Below are positions 33,501-62,336 of a DNA stretch of 64,000 nucleotides, in pieces; the first letter of the stretch is position 1; every line of letters begins with the position of its first letter. The DNA is taken from contig MU004231.1 of assembly GCA_010405405.1 (NCBI GenBank), positions 2,471,249 to 2,535,248 of the forward strand, given 5' to 3'. The position numbers and the translations under genes are program-made. This DNA comes from Microthyrium microscopicum (lineage: Eukaryota > Ascomycota > Dothideomycetes > Microthyriales > Microthyriaceae). The notes beneath the pieces are model-generated. The model was not told where the DNA came from, made no database searches, and saw only the letters and a list, made by a program, of their open reading frames with translations.

Positions 33501-35001
33501 AAATGGGAAAGCTCAAGATCTCGCAGTATCTTGCAGACCTTGAAGAGCGCTATGGAATGGTCCTCTACGTTGCCGACACCAGTGTTCAATCGCCATGGAC
33601 CTCAACATGCGTAGCCCAAGCCGATTGTGTATTAGTAGTCGGCGTAGCTGATGATTCACCAGCGCTTGGCGAATATGAAAGAATCGTTTTGACAGCAAAA
33701 ACGACTGCCCGAAAAGAACTCGTTCTACTCCACGCCGAGCGATTATGTCCGCCAGGCCTAACATCCAAGTGGCTGCGCAACCGACTCTGGATCAACGGTG
33801 GCCACCACCACGTTCAGATGGAAAACGCAACTGTCTTACAGGCAGGCAGTGTGAAAAGCAGACGGACTGGTGCCGCAGCAGCCATAAAGCATCGAGTCAA
33901 GGTCATTCAAGCTGAGATTCAGAAATTCACAGGTAGAAGAGTCACGCAAACACCTATCTACTCAACTACTTCACCATTCAAATCCGACTTTCATCGACTT
34001 GCCCGAAGACTATGCGGAAAGTCTATCGGCCTTGTTCTCGGTGGCGGTGGAGCTCGCGGCATAGCCCACGTAGGCATCATACGAGCCATGGAAGAAGCCG
34101 GCATACCCATTGACATCGTCGGTGGAACATCAATTGGCGCCTTCGTCGGCGCCCTCTACGCCTGGGATGCTGGCATCGTGCCCATGTATGGTCGCATCAA
34201 GCGCTTTGCTGGCCGCATGGGTAGTATGTGGCGCTTTGCTCTCGACCTCACCTATCCCTCGTAAGCTCCCTTCCCTTCGGTTCCATACTTTTCAGCCAGC
34301 TAACCATTTTCAGGGCATCCTACACAACCGGCCTTGAATTCAACCGCGGCATCTGGAAAACCTTCGCAAACTACCGCATCGAAGACTTCTGGCTCCCCTA
34401 CTACTGCAACACCACCAACATTTCCCGCTCCTGCGCAGAATACCACAACTCTGGCCACGTCTGGCGCTACGTCCGTGCCTCCATGTCCCTTGCCGGCCTG
34501 CTCCCACCTCTCTGTGACGACGGCAACATGCTTTTAGACGGCGGATACATCGACAACTTGACCGTCGCGCACATGAAATCCTTAGGCTGCGATGTCATTT
34601 TCGCAGTAGACGTTGGTTCTCTCGACGACCATACGCCGCAAACGTATGGCGATAGCCTGAGTGGCTTTTGGAGTCTGTGGAATCGCTGGGATCCGTTGAG
34701 TAATGCACCGAATCCGCCCACACTGGGTGACATACAGTCGAGATTGGCGTATGTGTCTAGTGTGGAAGCGCTCGAGCGTGCGAAAACGACGCCGGGGTGC
34801 CATTATATGAGGCCGCCAATTGATCCGTTTGGAACGCTGGCGTTTGGGGAGTTTGATGAGATCTACAAGGTCGGGTATGAGTATGGGCAGAAAGTGCTGG
34901 CGGAGTTAAGGGAGCAGAAGGTGTTGCCGCTTATGGAGGAGGCGGAGGGTGATAAAGGGGATCTGAGGAGGACGAGGATGAGTAGACGGGCTAGTGTTTA
35001 G
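30587..35001 (+). CDS. nte1: Lysophospholipase NTE1 (neuropathy target esterase family)
   Basis: Two exons, 30587-34260 and 34314-35001 (53-bp intron with GCTAAC branch), 1453 residues. N-terminal hydrophobic segments at about 17-80 anchor the protein in the ER. Cyclic-nucleotide-binding-like domains follow ([53 protein letters not shown]). The patatin esterase domain has the oxyanion motif GGGGARG, nucleophile GTSIG and, across the junction, the catalytic Asp in LDGGYIDN. Nte1 deacylates phosphatidylcholine, and also lysophosphatidylcholine, to glycerophosphocholine in the ER membrane. Long Ser-rich linkers could be phosphorylated. Size and order match fungal Nte1 (about 1500 residues). The call is secure. 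Confidence 0.95.
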
Positions 35002-35396
35002 ATCTGATTGATGGCGGTGATGCTACTAGGTGGGATGAAATGCTTAACCATTGATGAGGCAGAATATTGTAGACGTGACAAGAAGATTTTTCTGATGTAT
35101 GATAGCTGTTTTGGATATCAATAAATAGACTTTGCATTGGAAATCCCCATTGGATCCTATCAAATTGCATGGCATAGCGCCCATTTTTGTGCTCACGAAT
35201 GACTATAATACAAATAATTAAAAATACCGTTTATCCATACAATCTAAAACAGCCGACTAGCTTGCCTTTCTTTCATCAATACTGCGAATCTCATTGTTGA
35301 GGACCCCCAAACTCTCCTGAGCGCATATTGGGACTCTAATCACGAGATCTTGATGTCCCCGCCCGTCGCTCAATACGAACTCTCAGCTGCAACCGC
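35002..35396. other. Convergent intergenic region
   Basis: This holds the 3' flanks of nte1 and of the minus-strand PARP-finger gene. AT-rich; no gene. Confidence 0.5.
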
Positions 35397-36714
35397 TTAT
35401 TCGACCTTGAGCTCCTTCTTTGCTTTGCGAGCGCGTTTTGGTTTTGGAGCCTCATCTGGAATTGTCAGCATGAGGTTACGCTTCGTGGTGAAGCCGGGAG
35501 CTACCCATCGCATTCGGTGGGATCCATAGCACTCGATAAAGAACACATTCTATGGTAGCCGTCGAGTGCGATGGGAGATGTGGTGTTTTTGGTTCATATC
35601 AAAGAATGTGATCTGACACGAGGAAAGCTTACCTGGGGTAGCCTCGTCATCGGCTTTGAGCACTTTGAGAGTACGCTTGTTAGGCTTCTGGGAGGTGTTA
35701 GCCCAACGCTTCGCGTATCCGAGTGGCCACCATCAAGTGCTGTGGGAAACATCAAGTGATGTGGGAGAGAGCAGTGCAATAAGCTTTGAATGAGAGACTC
35801 ACCTCTTCCTCAGAAGCATCCTCCTCGACCTTTGGTGCTTTAGCGGCTTTACGAGCCCGCTTTTGTTGCTCAGGTTTGGACACTTTTTCATTCAAGTCCT
35901 CCTCTTCGACCTTGGGCTCAACCTTTGCTTTGCGGGCAGCTTTCTTCTTTGGTTCAGGCTTGGGCGCTTCTTCAAGAGATTCTTCCTCCTCAATCTTGGT
36001 CTCAACCTTGGTCTTACGAGCACGCTTCTTCGGTTCAGGTTTGGCAGGCTCTTCAGCGGACACATCCTCTTCGACCTTGGTTGCTTTGGTGGCCTTGCGA
36101 GGTGCGCCTTTCTTAAGTGCAGGCTTGGATGCTTCTTCATCATCATCCTCCTCCTCCTCAGCATCCTCCTCGGCGACCTTGGTTGCTTTGGTGGCCTTGC
36201 GAGGTGCGCGTTTCTTAGGTGCAGGCTTGGATGCTTCTTCATCGTCCTCCTCAGCATCCTCCTCGGCGACCTTCTTCGCCTTCTTCTTTGGAGCGCGCTT
36301 GGCACCGGGACGATTCAATTCAGGCTCTTGCTTCCAATCTTCATCGTCGACGTGGCCCTGCTCTAGAGCGCGGCGAACCTTGACCTGGTCGTCGTCATCG
36401 AGAGTGTCAAAGTTTTCAAACAAGTCAAAGTTGCCTTCAAGGAACTTATTAACGTTTTCGATTTGTTTTGGGGTCCAGCAGCCCCTGTTGGGAATATCAG
36501 TAACATAGCAAAAGGCCTTGTGGTCAATGGACAGTGAGACTTACAAATGTCTATATTTCCAGCTGGCACGGGCTTCGCCATGAACATTGATCTCGACCCA
36601 AGTGCCAACACGAATCTCGCCCTTTTCAAACTTGATTTTGGTCGCTTTGCATCGGGCGTCGTCACAGCCAGCTCGACGGTTGGGAGCATACTCTATCATG
36701 TAAGCGGTAGGCAT
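35397..36714 (-). CDS. PARP-type zinc-finger protein with Lys/Ala/Glu repeats
   Basis: Four coding exons: 36545-36714, 35803-36484, 35633-35687 and 35397-35455, total 321 residues. The N-terminal ~95 residues form a PARP-type zinc finger: AYMIEYAPNRRAGC, a second Cys four residues on (C-x4-C), GEIRVGTWVEI, then YRHLGCWTPKQIEN supplying His and Cys, ending VRRALEQGHV. Such fingers bind DNA ends. No catalytic domain follows; instead come repeats of about 33 residues alternating basic (KKRAPRKATKATK) and acidic (EEDAEEEEDDDEEASKP) blocks, suggesting a DNA- or histone-binding tail. Intron lengths are striking: 60, then 115 and 177 bp, against about 50 bp elsewhere in the window, and the long ones carry hairpin elements. 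A 238-bp intron is probable in the 5' UTR (36742-36979). Confidence 0.8.
35456..35632 (-). other. 177-bp intron carrying hairpin element (introner-like copy 1)
   Basis: The intron, three times the local norm, contains a 72-bp imperfect palindrome at 35504-35575 with arms of about 25 bp and a loop of about 20 bp. Its right arm matches that of the copy at 36819-36934 at 22 of 23 bases. Confidence 0.65.
35688..35802 (-). other. 115-bp intron with degenerate element copy
   Basis: Within it, 35721-35766 carries two similar CACTTGATG/CATCAAGTG-type blocks that align loosely to the element arms. This is probably an old copy. Confidence 0.35.
36076..36270 (-). repeat. About 100-bp in-frame tandem repeat in PARP-finger gene
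   Basis: Two near-identical blocks encode PRKATKATKV followed by an acidic stretch and EASKPA. Copies differ by the length of the Glu/Asp run, so slippage is likely. Confidence 0.75.
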
Positions 36715-36741
36715 GTTGAGAGACGTGGTAATGACGAGAGT

Positions 36742-36979
36742 CTGTAGTTGGTCAGTGTAAGAGCGTGATAAAAGCTGACGTGCTCTGAAAAGGTCAAACG
36801 GTCTCTTCGTTCAAAGTCAAACCATAGGTAGCGTATCTTCCATCGTAGTCGATGGCACCCATAGCATTCGATAAGAAAGGCGTCTTATGGTAGCCGTCGA
36901 GTGCGATAAGAAATACGGTCGGTACCTATGGTTTCGTTGGACGTGGTCAGGAAATGTGATTTTCCGCGGAGAATCTTAC
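36742..36979 (-). other. Putative 238-bp 5' UTR intron carrying hairpin element (copy 2)
   Basis: A GTAAGATTC donor begins at 36979 and an acceptor CTACAG ends at 36742, 27 bp before the ATG. Inside is a 116-bp palindrome (36819-36934) whose outer arms AAACCATAGGTA/TACCTATGGTTT are perfect. Transcript evidence is lacking. Confidence 0.55.
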
Positions 36980-37868
36980 TTGAAGCAGAGAAGTGGATGT
37001 GCTGGAACAGGTGTTTGATGGAGAAAGGCGATGAGAATGGGAGTTTTTGAGTTTTTATGAGAGACGGAGGGTTTGGGTGGTGGCAGTGTTAATCTGGTGT
37101 TAATAGGTAGAGTAGGTACCTAGGCAGCTGCCCAAGCCGGGTACTTTGAGATTTGAGGTAGAGTAGGCAAGTATGGTTGGACTGAGGGAAGGAGCGACGG
37201 GTGCCAGTCTCAGATGCTCTTTCCCGTTGAGGTCAGTAGCAAGTTAGCAACATGTATGCGCCTGACCTGCAAGCAAATCCTTTTTCCTTTCCTTAATCTC
37301 AAATCCTTTGTTCTACTAATCAGGTCATCCTTATACAACACCTGAATCGCAGAACAATTTGTGTATGCAAACACTCCATCTCGGCTACCTGCGTCGACAT
37401 CAAATGATTAAGGTGTAGCAAAGGGCTTTCTGCCTTATGGCCTGATCATGCCAACAACGTCTGCAGTTGCATGTGCCATGTGGTACCAACTGGCAACATT
37501 TGAAGGGTACCTAGATCCAGATGTCGCTTTCTCTTATTTTTTCAAGGGCCCATGACGAAACTATATTCAATGCTAAGACTAACACTCGATATCTGACAGG
37601 ATCTTGCTTCATTAATTTGGTACAAAATTGAGTCGACAAAGTGAAGTCATGACGATATTGATCAGTTCAAAGCCTGACAAATACCTTGTTGCCTGACACA
37701 GTCAACGCGTCAATCTAAACTCTCAACTACACCAAATGCAAATGCAACTTCGTCAATGAAAAAAAGTTTCCACCCCAAATACTCTGCACACAACTCTTTC
37801 TTCTCCAGCGATCGACTACCCTCTTTCGTTGGCTCGATACAAATACAACCTCAAGCCACGATGACTTG
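36980..37868. promoter_or_regulatory. Divergent promoter region (PARP-finger gene / mitochondrial protein)
   Basis: An 889-bp region with no gene. It is the upstream of both divergent genes. Confidence 0.45.
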
Positions 37869-41560: not shown

Positions 41561-43729
41561 ATGGTTATTTATAAGAATGAAAAGTCATATCCGATTCCAG
41601 ATCTGGATCTTTTGACGATATGTTTTGGTAAACTCATCCCCTTGTCTCTCCTAATTCTATCCATCTCTATGGAGCCGCAATTCTTGTGGAATCTAAGCTA
41701 AGACATATCCAATATAGATTCAGAACATTCCTCAGCCTTGCCAGAGAGCATCCTCCACTGCTCAGCCGAGAAACCTAGCATCTCGCTCAACAAACTTGGC
41801 CTACAACGCCTACTCGAGGAGTTCGCATGGGGTATTCGCAAACGCTTCAATATCGGCGCGAATGGCAGGAATAAAGATGTTGTTTGTATCTTTAGCTCTG
41901 GGCAGCCGGCGTATCCTGCCGCTACGTTTGGGGTTATTGCGGCTGGAGGAGTCGCTAGTCTGGTAAGTGGAGGGATGTTTGGTTTGATGATGGCGAAAAT
42001 ATGTGAGAGGACTTGGTGGCGCCCAGCGCATTCGATGGCGGCCATGGCACTCTATGGCTGGTATGAAGTGCGATGGGCCTTTATCACGACAACGGCATCT
42101 CACTTTTCGGCGGGCTTTTGGCTCTTTGGAATAAAGAGAGCTCTTTCAATCATATGCTGATGAGATTCAGGTCAGTCCTAGCAGCACCAGCCATGAAGTC
42201 GCTCGCCAGGTAACGTCCGGTCTGGCGAAAGTCTTGATCTGTAGCGAAGACTTTGTGGAGACTGCGAGGAAGGCGCTGAAGGAGATTGAGTATCCGGTCA
42301 CTCTATGTGTTCTACGCACGGAGCCGGATTGGGGTCTCAGGATTGATGGCGATGAGAGTGATGCTGGTGAACTCAGGGGCTCACTGGCGAGTGAGCGACT
42401 TACTTGGGAACGGATCACGGATACACAGGAGCTCAAGGACAGTCTCATCATGCTGCTTTACTCCTCTGGCACTACGGGTGTCCCTAAAGGTATGTCTTCC
42501 TAATGCTCCTCTCTCTTCCTCATCGCATCTTCTTCTTCCCATCGCATCATCTCTCAGCCATCACCTCTCCGAAAACCACACACAGCACAACTAACACATA
42601 CACAGGAGTATGCCTTTCCCACTACAACTTCGTAGCCGAACTCATAATCCTCTCCACCCCCGCCCGCGCCTTCCTCGCCAAAGCCGTAGCAGCCGGCGCT
42701 CCCCTCCCACCACCCAACCGCGCCCTCGCCCACCTCCCCGCCGCCCACATAGCCGGCGTAATGTCCTACATAATCGCGCCTCCCTTCTCCGGCGGCACCG
42801 TCTACTGGATGGCCAAATACACCTGGCCGCTCTTCCTAAGACTTGCCGGCCAATGCCGCATCACCACCATTTACACCGTGCCCTCCATCTATCTGCGCAT
42901 GGCTAAAGATCCTGCTGTGAAGGACCAGTTTAGATGGTTGTATAGGGCGAGTGCGGGCGCGGCACCGATTGATGGCGCACTGCAGGTTGCGGCGGGGAAG
43001 AAGGTGGGCAGTGGACATGTTAGCCAGACTTGGGGACTGAGTGAGACTACGGGGGCGGTTACGGCGCCTACGCCTGGTGGAGAGCAGGATGTGTCTGGGA
43101 GTATTAGTCCCGTGGTGCCTAATGTTGAGTTGAGGTTCGTTGATGGAAGTGATCAGGTACGTTTAAGCGACGGGTGATTGGGATGATAGCTAATGATGTA
43201 GGATGTGCCGGAGGGACAGCCGGGAGAGATTTTAGTGCGTGGACCGATAGTTACGAAAGGGTATTTCAATAATCCGGAGGCTACGAAGGCAGCTTTTAGG
43301 AACGGGTGGTTTGCCACAGGCGATATAGGCGTTGTGAGAGAGGGGAGATTTTATATTGTTGATCGGTTGAAGGAGCTGATCAAGTATAAAGGTCTTCAAG
43401 TGGCTCCGGCGGAGATTGAGGGTCTGCTCATTACACATCCTCATATCTTGGAGGCGGCTGTTGTTGGAATACCTGAAGCTGAGGCTGCTGGAGATACTGT
43501 GGCTCATTCAGAAGTCCCACGGGCGTATGTGGTTCGGGTTCCTGGAACGGCCATCTCCGCCGACGAAGTCAAGAACTTTGTTAAGGAGAAACTAGCGCAG
43601 TACAAACAGCTAAGAGGGGGAGTGGTGTTCGTTGATGAGTTGCCCAAGAATGCACTGAATAAGGTGTTGAGGAGAGAACTCCGAGACCTCGCGGTGAAAG
43701 AAGTTCGGACTGAAAGAGCGAGGCTATAA
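41561..43729 (+). CDS. Acyl/aryl-CoA ligase (AMP-binding), probably peroxisomal
   Basis: Five exons: 41561-41627, 41718-41962, 42171-42489, 42606-43156 and 43202-43729, total 569 residues. Core ANL motifs are intact: the P-loop LLYSSGTTGVPKG (split by intron 3 after K), AHLPAAHIAG, QTWGLSETTG, GDIGVVREGRFYIVDRLKELIKYKGLQVAP, and the catalytic Lys in NALNKVLRREL. It resembles fungal 4-coumarate-CoA-ligase-like enzymes, which adenylate a carboxylic acid and transfer it to CoA; substrate unknown. The C-terminus ARL fits a type 1 peroxisomal signal ([SAC][KRH][LM]). Introns 2 (208 bp) and 3 (116 bp) are unusually long, and intron 2 carries a hairpin element like those in the PARP-finger gene. Confidence 0.88.
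41963..42170 (+). other. 208-bp intron carrying hairpin element (introner-like copy 3)
   Basis: The imperfect palindrome 42021-42078 begins GCCCAGCGCATTCGATGGCG and ends GTGCGATGGGC. It aligns in the sense direction to the copy in the PARP-finger gene (about 19 of 24 bases in one arm). Confidence 0.6.
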
Positions 43730-59957: not shown

Positions 59958-60527
59958 GGCCTTGACCTCCTTCTTTAATTCTCGAAGTTGTGGAGCACCA
60001 AGCATAGCAGAGTAAATGGCATAGACTGGAGCTCATGAGAGTCTTCAAGCGCGTTGGTCTCGCTCTGCTTTCGCACTTGGAAATTGCAGGCTGTGATTTC
60101 AGAACAGCAAGGGACAAGCAACGCTTATTTTGTCAGCTCATGGCTGTTAGCTGACTTGATTGATACCGGAATATACTCATGCAGACATGCAACGAGCCTG
60201 TACACTACTCAATGCACTCCCCATTCACCAACTCCTTACGAGGCCTGTACACTACTCAATGCACTCCCCATTCACCAACTCCTTACGAGCGAGTAACAGT
60301 ATACCCTATACCCAACCCAGAAACCCTTGATAGTGTATAATTATGTAGCGTTCACCGGGTCCAAATGTACCTCGAAAGCAAGTCCAGTCCGCGAGGACTC
60401 TTGCCATCACCTGTCGGAAATTATTCAAAACACTGGTGATAGCCAGCACATTCGATGGCTCCCACGGATTGCATGTAGTAAATGAACAAACAATGAAACA
60501 AATCCGAAAGATGCCTGTCCCCTGTGT
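59958..60527. other. Convergent intergenic region with tandem duplication
   Basis: It holds a perfect 47-bp tandem duplication (60196-60289) and an isolated 18-bp match to the intron hairpin elements (60443-60460). No gene seen. Confidence 0.6.
60196..60289. repeat. Perfect 47-bp tandem duplication
   Basis: Two identical units start GCCTGTACACTACTCAATGC at 60196 and 60243. Perfect identity implies recent origin. Confidence 0.9.
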
Positions 60528-62336
60528 CTAAGATTCACCCAACGCCCTGCTTAGAACCGTCCCTACTGTCTGCCCATGAGCCGCCAATGTCAACGCCGCC
60601 TGCTTAGCGGCCAGCAACCCACTCTCCAAGCGCCCATTGCGCGCCCGTACTGTATCCAGCTCCTCCTCCAGCCTCGACACCCTGCTCTGCGTACCTGGAC
60701 TATACACCTTCAAATCCGCTTCACCAACATCGGCACCATCATGTTTTATTGCCAACATACTCTCCAATTGCCTAACCCGTCTCGTCAACCGTGCTTTTTC
60801 CGCCATCCACTCCGTCTCGCCCACCGATCCTATCATCCCACCTGTAACACTTGCACTTCCTTCCGCACCAGGGTGTAATTTCCCAGCCATGTCAACAATC
60901 CTCATCCACTGGCTTTTACTCTCCTCGCCCACCCGCCTCGCCTCATCTCTCTGACTTTCCAACATCCGCATATCTCGCTGCAAGCCCTCGATCCGATCTT
61001 CCAACCGCTCCTTATCCGTTGAAAGCGCAATGATTTCCGCGTCAGAGACTTTGAATTTCTTTTCAAAAGTGTCGCACTTTACACGCTGACGCTCGAGTTT
61101 TGCGAAAAGGGTTTCGTATTCTTTCGTTAGAGTTGTATAGTGGAGGGTTTGCACGGAGAGTTGGTGGCGTAGGTCGTCGATTACTGCGGCGTGCGCTGCG
61201 GCAGAGTGGTGGGATGTCGCCGAGTGGTGGGATATCGCAGACTGGGCTACGGAGGAGTGCGTGGAGGAGTGGATTGCGGAGGATGTAGGTATAGGAGGAG
61301 CCGACGATGATGGAAGAAGAGAGGATGGGGGGAGCGTGAGGGAGGGAAATGTGGTGGATGGAAGGTTGGAGGATGAGGGAGATGCTGGGATAGATGTGAG
61401 CGAGTGGGCAGGCGGTGGAATTGTGATATGGAGGGAGACGGGGGAGGGTGGTGGGTGGGCTGTACTGCTATGTAGACGGGCGCGAGCTGATGGAAGCACT
61501 GTTGGGCTCGTTTTGTCGGCGGAAGTTGGTGGTTGGGAGGATGGATCGGGTGGATTTTGGGTTGATTGGGAGTCTCGTCGATCGGGTGGTTGTGGTGACG
61601 GAGGGCGAGGTATGGACGAGCCGGCTTTTGGCGCGTTGCTGTCGAGAAGGGTTTTGAGTGATATGTTGCTATTTGTGAGGCGGTTACATATGGCTTCTAG
61701 CAATGTTGAGAGTGGCAATGAACTGAGTCCAGTCTCTATGGCTCGGTGGGTATCTGCATTACTTCCGTGTACTAACATCTCATGATGAGCTATTTGGCTG
61801 TTCAGTTTGGAGCTGAGGGAGCGCAAGGACACGCATTGAGACCCCGTACAGGATGCTGAACAGCATCTGCCTGGTGTGATCGATGGCTGATCGGATCGAG
61901 CTGTGAATGCTTCGTGAAAGGCCCCGGATATAAGTCTCTCACGACTCCTTGCGCCTTGATCGTCAACGCGGCGACGCTTTGAAGACGAAGACAATGGCTG
62001 GAATTCAAAAAACTGCTGATTGAGGCCCATGATATTATCTGCGTTTTGCCCGATTAATGAATCTAGACTAGATGTTTGCCGATGTGAAGAATGCACGGTG
62101 CGTCGTGATTGTAACGGCCTTGGGTCTTGCTGGGCAGATGCTTCATTTGAAGGACGTCTCTGGATGTCCTGCAAACTGGACGTTGGCCCGATCGGTGCGG
62201 ATATTATTTCAGATGCTACACCAGTAGAGCTTTCAGCCGGTGATAAGGCTTCTGAACCTTCCTCCCAAGGGCGTCTAGGTCGTGAATTATGAGCCATCAG
62301 AGAGTCTTGCTCCGAAAGCTGGCCATGCGGCTTCAA
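60528..62336 (-). CDS. Ser/Pro-rich protein with C-terminal coiled coil, unidentified (602 aa)
   Basis: A single exon. The N-terminal third is Ser/Gln-rich with a possible nuclear signal (KRRRVDDQGARSRER) and a short Cys-rich stretch (RCCSASCTGSQCVSLRSL). A conserved-looking helical block (HHEMLVHGSNADTHRAIE; LLEAICNRLTNSNISLKTLLD) precedes 150 residues of Pro/Ser/Thr repeats, then two coiled-coil segments (HQLSVQTLHYTTLTKEYETLFAKLER; ISLSTDKERLEDRI-type heptads). The Ser/His-rich run (SAISHHSATSHHSAAAH) is a small imperfect repeat. I recognise no catalytic domain; it may be a scaffold. The start at 62336 is the first ATG of the frame. Confidence 0.65.
   Translation of the reverse strand: MKPHGQLSEQDSLMAHNSRPRRPWEEGSEALSPAESSTGVASEIISAPIGPTSSLQDIQRRPSNEASAQQDPRPLQSRRTVHSSHRQTSSLDSLIGQNADNIMGLNQQFFEFQPLSSSSKRRRVDDQGARSRERLISGAFHEAFTARSDQPSITPGRCCSASCTGSQCVSLRSLSSKLNSQIAHHEMLVHGSNADTHRAIETGLSSLPLSTLLEAICNRLTNSNISLKTLLDSNAPKAGSSIPRPPSPQPPDRRDSQSTQNPPDPSSQPPTSADKTSPTVLPSARARLHSSTAHPPPSPVSLHITIPPPAHSLTSIPASPSSSNLPSTTFPSLTLPPSSLLPSSSAPPIPTSSAIHSSTHSSVAQSAISHHSATSHHSAAAHAAVIDDLRHQLSVQTLHYTTLTKEYETLFAKLERQRVKCDTFEKKFKVSDAEIIALSTDKERLEDRIEGLQRDMRMLESQRDEARRVGEESKSQWMRIVDMAGKLHPGAEGSASVTGGMIGSVGETEWMAEKARLTRRVRQLESMLAIKHDGADVGEADLKVYSPGTQSRVSRLEEELDTVRARNGRLESGLLAAKQAALTLAAHGQTVGTVLSRALGES

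Follow-up and report, generated by a model that had tools for sequence, protein, structure and literature searches.

The origin of new spliceosomal introns is an old open question, and fungal introner-like elements (ILEs) are among the few cases in which it can be studied. In the window (the whole 64,000-nucleotide stretch of Microthyrium microscopicum DNA analysed), two long introns of one gene each contain a palindrome, and the initial annotation had proposed that both are ILEs; the locus raises the question of what these hairpins are and how the introns that carry them spread. The host gene, with its ATG at 36714 and the end of its stop codon at 35397 on the minus strand, yields a 321-aa frame when introns 36544-36485, 35802-35688 and 35632-35456 are excised. 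Pfam finds a zf-PARP domain in this protein, whose best named relative is from Patellaria atrata (60% over residues 1-110). The features concerned are the following.

35397..36714, minus strand: coding span of the host gene, a 321-aa zf-PARP protein with a Lys/Glu-rich tail once introns are removed
36742..36979, minus strand: ILE copy constituting an entire 238-bp intron in the 5' UTR (profile 1-222, 149 bits)
36819..36934, no strand: hairpin core of the 238-bp ILE intron (palindrome, multicopy, DNA fold)
36485..36544, minus strand: ordinary 60-bp intron of the zf-PARP gene (gene model)
35688..35802, minus strand: 115-bp intron of the zf-PARP gene with a faint hairpin trace (4.7 bits against 1.1 for the best of 500 shuffles)
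35456..35632, minus strand: ILE copy constituting an entire 177-bp intron close to the 3' end of the coding region (profile 1-222, 140 bits)
35504..35575, no strand: hairpin core of the 177-bp ILE intron (palindrome, multicopy, RNA fold)
41963..42170, plus strand: 208-bp intron of an AMP-binding-enzyme gene with a decayed core of the hairpin (15.0 bits on its own strand, 20.7 on the other)
60399..60475, no strand: weak trace of the hairpin (12 bits) immediately downstream of the ORF with low end 60528

Both palindromes were confirmed at 35504-35575 and 36819-36934, and the right arm that they had been said to share is an exact match of 22 bases, TATGGTAGCCGTCGAGTGCGAT. The DNA fold of 36800-36950 is far better than that of shuffled sequences (z -7.4, 0 of 200 as good), and the RNA fold of 35490-35600 is matched by one shuffle in 200 (z -3.3). 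The hairpin introns are indeed long, at 177 and 238 bp compared with 60 and 115 bp for the other introns of the gene. The 177-bp intron, with termini GTAAGCTT..ATTCCAG, introduces a stop if retained, whereas its excision lets the frame run to the stop of the host gene; the 238-bp intron, with termini GTAAGATT..AACTACAG, ends 27 nt upstream of the ATG and has its palindrome extended (AAACCATAGGTA..TACCTATGGTTT). This copy and one at C10:936373 both have the extension (AAACCATA..ATGGTTT) and are perhaps members of a subfamily. The 115-bp intron, which leaves stops in frame when retained, is possibly a very old ILE; with a score of just 4.7 bits it was not accepted as a dead one. An Rfam scan of 34900-37400 gave no known RNA family at gathering score.

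Searches of the genome (36.9 Mb, 20 contigs) with the hairpins revealed a multicopy rather than a single-copy sequence: the 20-base core, with up to three mismatches, has 184 matches as against one for the reversed control. The larger hairpin (36819-36934) finds 12 matches, itself included, and the smaller query (35490-35590) 40 scored places from 60 candidates, itself again included, the others being 77-89% identical. Patterns for the 5' arm and the distal palindrome match 52 and 27 times (controls 2 and 0). Similarity among the copies extends past the hairpin in both directions and covers GTAAGATT to CTRACAAATTCCAG, and the ends of the family are splice sites, GTAAGA...CTRACAAATTCCAG. From 20 copies picked by eye with their splice sites, a whole-intron profile of 222 positions was built, a score of at least 60 bits defining a clear family member. 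By this definition, the 99 core matches examined out of 184 comprise 75 in clear members, seven in decayed ones, 16 hairpins only and one in none of these, so that these hits do not lie mostly outside introns. The intron borders given for the window copies, 35632/35456 and 36979/36742, coincide with the start and end of the profile (positions 1-222 in both), an agreement that is partly by construction because both copies are among the 20 profile builders.

Applied to 69 stretches totalling 238 kb, the profile gave 147 non-overlapping matches, weak ones included, in 119 clusters. Fifty matches are full-length, and 38 of these have no near same-strand neighbour. In 34 of the 38, GT and AG are found within 1 nt of the profile ends (exactly at the ends in 30); among the 19 that had no part in building the profile (the other 19 did), the figure is 15. 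These 34 intact copies are 177-246 bp long (median 221), and conservation reaches 1.94 bits at GT and AG and is about zero outside, except at positions -1 and +1. The remaining four lack a splice site near the profile ends; the copies at C1:880135, C6:1558921 and C4:2060651 look dead, their frames being broken. Capture-recapture on 102 hairpin loci (152 listed places) and 50 five-prime-arm loci, 22 of them shared, gives about 230 copies, a rough estimate because it is based on 100 of the 184 core matches, some of them hairpins only.

The reading frames surrounding the copies behave as expected of introns. With the element removed, 32 of the 34 intact copies have an open frame across 75+75 nt, as do 14 of the 15 GT/AG copies outside the profile-building set; the antisense figure is 10/34. 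Random excisions of the same length from the same stretches leave an open frame in 46% of 5951 cases, a value that is high because these stretches are gene-rich. Intron phases are distributed 14/9/8 among the 31 copies whose best-scoring frame is open. When 10 spliced peptides were chosen from 41 as long and domain-like, a Pfam domain crossed the junction in eight, in one of them by just seven residues; of the other two, one has a kinase domain stopping before the junction and one is domain-free. Six further spliced peptides gave no Pfam match, which is neutral for the intron reading. These frames and domains suggest that the copies are spliced as introns. In the AMP-binding-enzyme gene of the window, excision of 41963-42170 likewise joins the frame, and the Pfam AMP-binding match spans the junction; this intron is best regarded as a decayed copy and brings the ILE-derived introns of the window to three. 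A direct repeat of about 40 bases (GTAAGGAGTTGGTGAATGGGGAGTGCATTGAGTAGTGTAC, minus strand) lies at 60220-60290, close to the low end of the window gene at 60528-62336.

The same data bear on whether the hairpins might be MITEs, small DNA transposons, that inserted into introns already present. The palindromic core would suit such elements, as would the occurrence of the hairpin motif in other surroundings, such as an 85-bp intron and a 458-bp one whose body differs. However, identity within the main family runs to GT and AG and stops there, neither flank retains any part of an older intron, and there is no target-site duplication; we regard this explanation as highly improbable. The hairpin occurs without a clear family body at 13 loci. 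An automatic scan for enclosing introns at 11 hairpin places (one of them a 29.5-bit match) found one that beat controls, and judged by reading frame two places, C3:736645-736188 and the 85-bp one on C8, also look intronic. The first of these (minus strand) is a 458-bp intron in which hairpin-bearing units lie about 160 bp apart in a body unlike that of the main family; its removal restores a CCHC zinc knuckle (by eye), and it is perhaps a second ILE-like family sharing the hairpin. The other, near C8:210195 on the plus strand, has the motif in an 85-bp GT-AG intron with the frame open on both sides and the rest of the ILE absent. Outside clear members, a 19-base palindromic motif (CCATCGCACTCGATGGCTA-like) is repeated at C6:2031583-2032206, C7:1377025-1377258 and C8:2227029-2227178.

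Taken together, the copies are a multicopy family whose repeat unit is a whole intron, lying in sense orientation, with frames and domains joined across it and no target-site duplication. The proposal that these are ILEs is borne out in that the family is multicopy and its intact copies are whole GT-to-AG introns in unrelated genes. We consider it very probable that the hairpins are worn copies of an introner-like element whose founder intron spread in a Dothideomycete ancestor. Such an element would be a mobile spliceosomal intron carrying its own donor, branch point and acceptor together with a long imperfect hairpin, and its founder would have multiplied in an ancestor of the Dothideomycete host. 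Landings would have hit exons, for the most part at G|G or G|A and with the target bases not duplicated; a landing of this kind, bringing its own splice signals, would give a working intron at once.

The part of the initial proposal that did not hold is recent intron gain. Across 82 copies (3250 pairs) the median pairwise identity is 65% and the best 84%, and identity to the consensus has a median of 77% and a best of 86%. To judge by these values, the family is an old and degenerate one, and it looks dead now. The two window copies, 35632-35456 and 36979-36742, are 65% identical, the 52nd percentile among all pairs; they look like two old insertions that occurred independently, and their origin by duplication within the gene is unsupported, 65% being the identity of an ordinary pair.

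Identity is higher in the hairpin core taken by itself (a column mean of 81% across 36 copies), and the consensus folds at -73.8 kcal/mol with the stem 85% paired. Maintenance of the hairpin by selection on RNA structure was considered and rejected: RNAalifold returned no consensus pair, covariation in the stem is not above that of shuffles (0.108 against 0.102, a level reached by 80 of 500), and among the 34 intact copies fold energy does not correlate with profile score (rho 0.20, p 0.26). With no stem covariation above shuffles, selection does not seem to maintain the hairpin in resident copies; the structure is strong in the consensus but drifts without compensatory change, its arms varying independently as for a relic. 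The hairpin may instead have had its role in multiplication, perhaps through protection of the excised RNA, rather than in the splicing of resident copies.

The insertion sites bear on how the family spread. Position -1 is G in 29 of the 34 intact copies and position +1 is G (23) or A (8) in 31, so that sites are mostly G|G or G|A. Target-site duplications were found in none of the 34 flanks for any length from 2 to 9; at other offsets the largest excess, seven observed against 4.0, lies inside the element. Nor do the profile ends, GTAAGATT and ATTCCAG, form an inverted repeat with one another. The precise ends, the sense orientation, the G|G sites and the lack of duplication fit reverse splicing, and fit a conventional DNA transposon poorly. 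Excised intron RNA would have been reinserted by the spliceosome, into RNA or single-stranded DNA, and then copied to DNA; we lean slightly towards this route, although reverse splicing alone does not explain the hairpin. The copies might alternatively have spread as rolling-circle elements, or as DNA transposons with intron-like ends like those of algae, and not have been RNA-borne at all; the seamless head-to-tail pairs described below, and the exact ends at a short G|G target without duplication, recall rolling-circle insertion. Against this stand the absence of target-site duplications (0/34) and of a terminal inverted repeat, and the sense orientation in an open frame of 32 of the 34 intact full-length copies, even though intergenic landings would be harmless (238 kb examined). 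In the portion of PMC9860276 drawn on here, moreover, ascomycete introners are the outlier that has neither terminal inverted repeats nor duplications. Spread as a DNA element is thus unlikely, and reverse splicing remains the reading preferred here.

More than one profile match occurs in 24 of the 119 clusters. In five pairs the end of one profile match meets the start of the next with no base between, and there is a sixth pair.

C4:97883/97882: profile join; frame open as one unit (C4:97651-98068)
C6:1825500/1825499: profile join; frame open as one unit (C6:1825688-1825329)
C8:467843/467844: profile join; frame open for 45 nt only
C9:424236/424237: profile join; frame open as one unit (C9:424035-424419)
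C13:776086/776087: profile join; frame open as one unit (region C13:775892-776227)
C4:2746561-2746128: sixth pair, AAATCCAG joined to GTGAGATT after a few extra bases; frame not open

Four of the six are thus open as one unit, the frame continuing to either side for 75 nt or 34 codons at the least. Fewer than 0.1 seamless pairs are expected by chance (arithmetic from about 230 copies and about a million G|G sites). Such pairs are unexpected from independent landings and point to either a head-to-tail intermediate or landing at the edge of an existing ILE; copies this old fit either. One form of the former would be circular ILE DNA or cDNA, its AG joined to GT, that entered a resident ILE by one crossover, or concatemers inserted at once. 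In keeping with this, there are six AG|GT joins, the units within a pair are no more alike (0.57-0.73 identical in the five pairs scored) than random copies (median 0.65), and the eight of the 34 intact single copies that are directly followed by GT all have an open frame there, so that no clear join to an ordinary intron was seen. Yet circles were not seen, tandem duplication at the time of the burst would by now give equal identities, in the C8 and C13 pairs the first unit lacks a profile match over its initial 32 or 39 positions, and a junction-pattern search for further pairs was unspecific (7 against 4 in controls). Circles or concatemers are a real possibility that we put somewhat below even, and we are more doubtful still that the pairs are footprints of such a head-to-tail intermediate, circular or concatemeric, recombining into, or inserting with, resident ILEs. 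Were this true, a circular or multimeric stage of the copied intron in fungal ILEs would predict exact AG|GT joins and ILE clustering.

A form with a duplicated core, joined at about the same place (position ~181 to ~22), was matched by the profile in seven introns.

C1:4402442: core-duplicated intron
C3:295887: core-duplicated intron
C4:2219247: core-duplicated intron
C5:1947539: core-duplicated intron
C6:746357: core-duplicated intron
C10:938586: core-duplicated intron
C10:1116005: core-duplicated intron

A neighbouring cluster lies within 1.5 kb of 23 of the 74 clusters scoring at least 40 bits, where an even spread of 230 copies would give about 2% (arithmetic), an expectation that would rise if decayed copies were more numerous; three of 12 neighbour pairs are on opposite strands. 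At C2:610456-610939, three family units are mutual nearest or second-nearest relatives (0.78-0.84) and include the best pair; this triple is most readily read as a later tandem duplication. At C2:2822550-2822151, two units share one G at their join (CTAGTCAG), and joining them leaves no open frame. Both the end-to-end pairs and the local clusters could separate reverse splicing, DNA transposition and circular copies, and can be searched for in species with young ILEs.

The host was placed with its TruA gene. In a tree of 31 of the 120 rows listed it falls in a supported group of six, apart from rows that we take to be Mycosphaerellales and Pleosporales. Of the 119 other BLAST proteins listed, none exceeds 57% identity to the TruA protein encoded in the window (60% in our own alignment). 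This one gene would place the host lineage outside those two orders, and the Dothideomycete ILEs described in the literature searched are from other lineages.

Comparison with known systems draws on portions of the papers cited. ILEs were reported in six Dothideomycetes and in eight Fulvia relatives, four genes having two ILEs separated by 145-626 bp, and active ILEs are 98-99% identical, lower in Dothistroma (PMC4457414). As quoted in PMC8469720, ILEs are long, with stable structure or inverted repeats, and the 2012 set of van der Burgt prefers AG/GY; there, reverse splicing is the favoured model for fungal ILEs, albeit unsatisfactory for the symmetry of the hairpin. PMC11889510 merely cites ILEs in the portion drawn on. 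Like those of Fulvia fulva, Dothistroma septosporum, Zymoseptoria tritici and kin (Collemare 2015, PMC4457414), the present copies are whole introns in many related copies in unrelated genes, long, seamless, without target-site duplication, decaying with time and occurring several per gene. They are multicopy, their intron coincides with a GT-AG repeat unit that has a branch point, and they have a stable structure. They differ in being far older (median identity 65%, against 98-99% for active ILEs), in their flanks (A at -2 in 11 of 34 and AG|GY in 5 of 34, compared with the AG/GY preference quoted for the 2012 set), in the seamless pairs and the duplicated-core form, and in lineage, according to a one-gene tree. 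Seamless ILE pairs, a shared internal duplication and ILE clustering were not found in the literature searched, which covers the 2012 paper through those citing it.

Symmetrical stwintrons have also been described (PMC8469720, PMC12403724). The sister stwintrons and cropped introns of Hypoxylaceae and Xylariaceae are, in the portions cited, likewise multiplying introns with inverted repeats, functional on the coding strand only and free of target-site duplication, whose symmetry is lost in divergent copies. In [D1,2] stwintrons, though, one intron is nested in the donor of another, whereas here two complete introns abut with no base between: all six pairs, tested for such nesting, join AG to GT, and the C2:2822550-2822151 units alone share one G, in a frame that is not open. 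The introners of algae and other eukaryotes resemble the family as introns spread as repeats (PMC9860276). Most non-ascomycete families have target-site duplications and/or terminal inverted repeats in that account, and ascomycete introners have neither; in the copies described here, neither of these two marks of DNA-transposon introners was found (duplications in 0 of 34).
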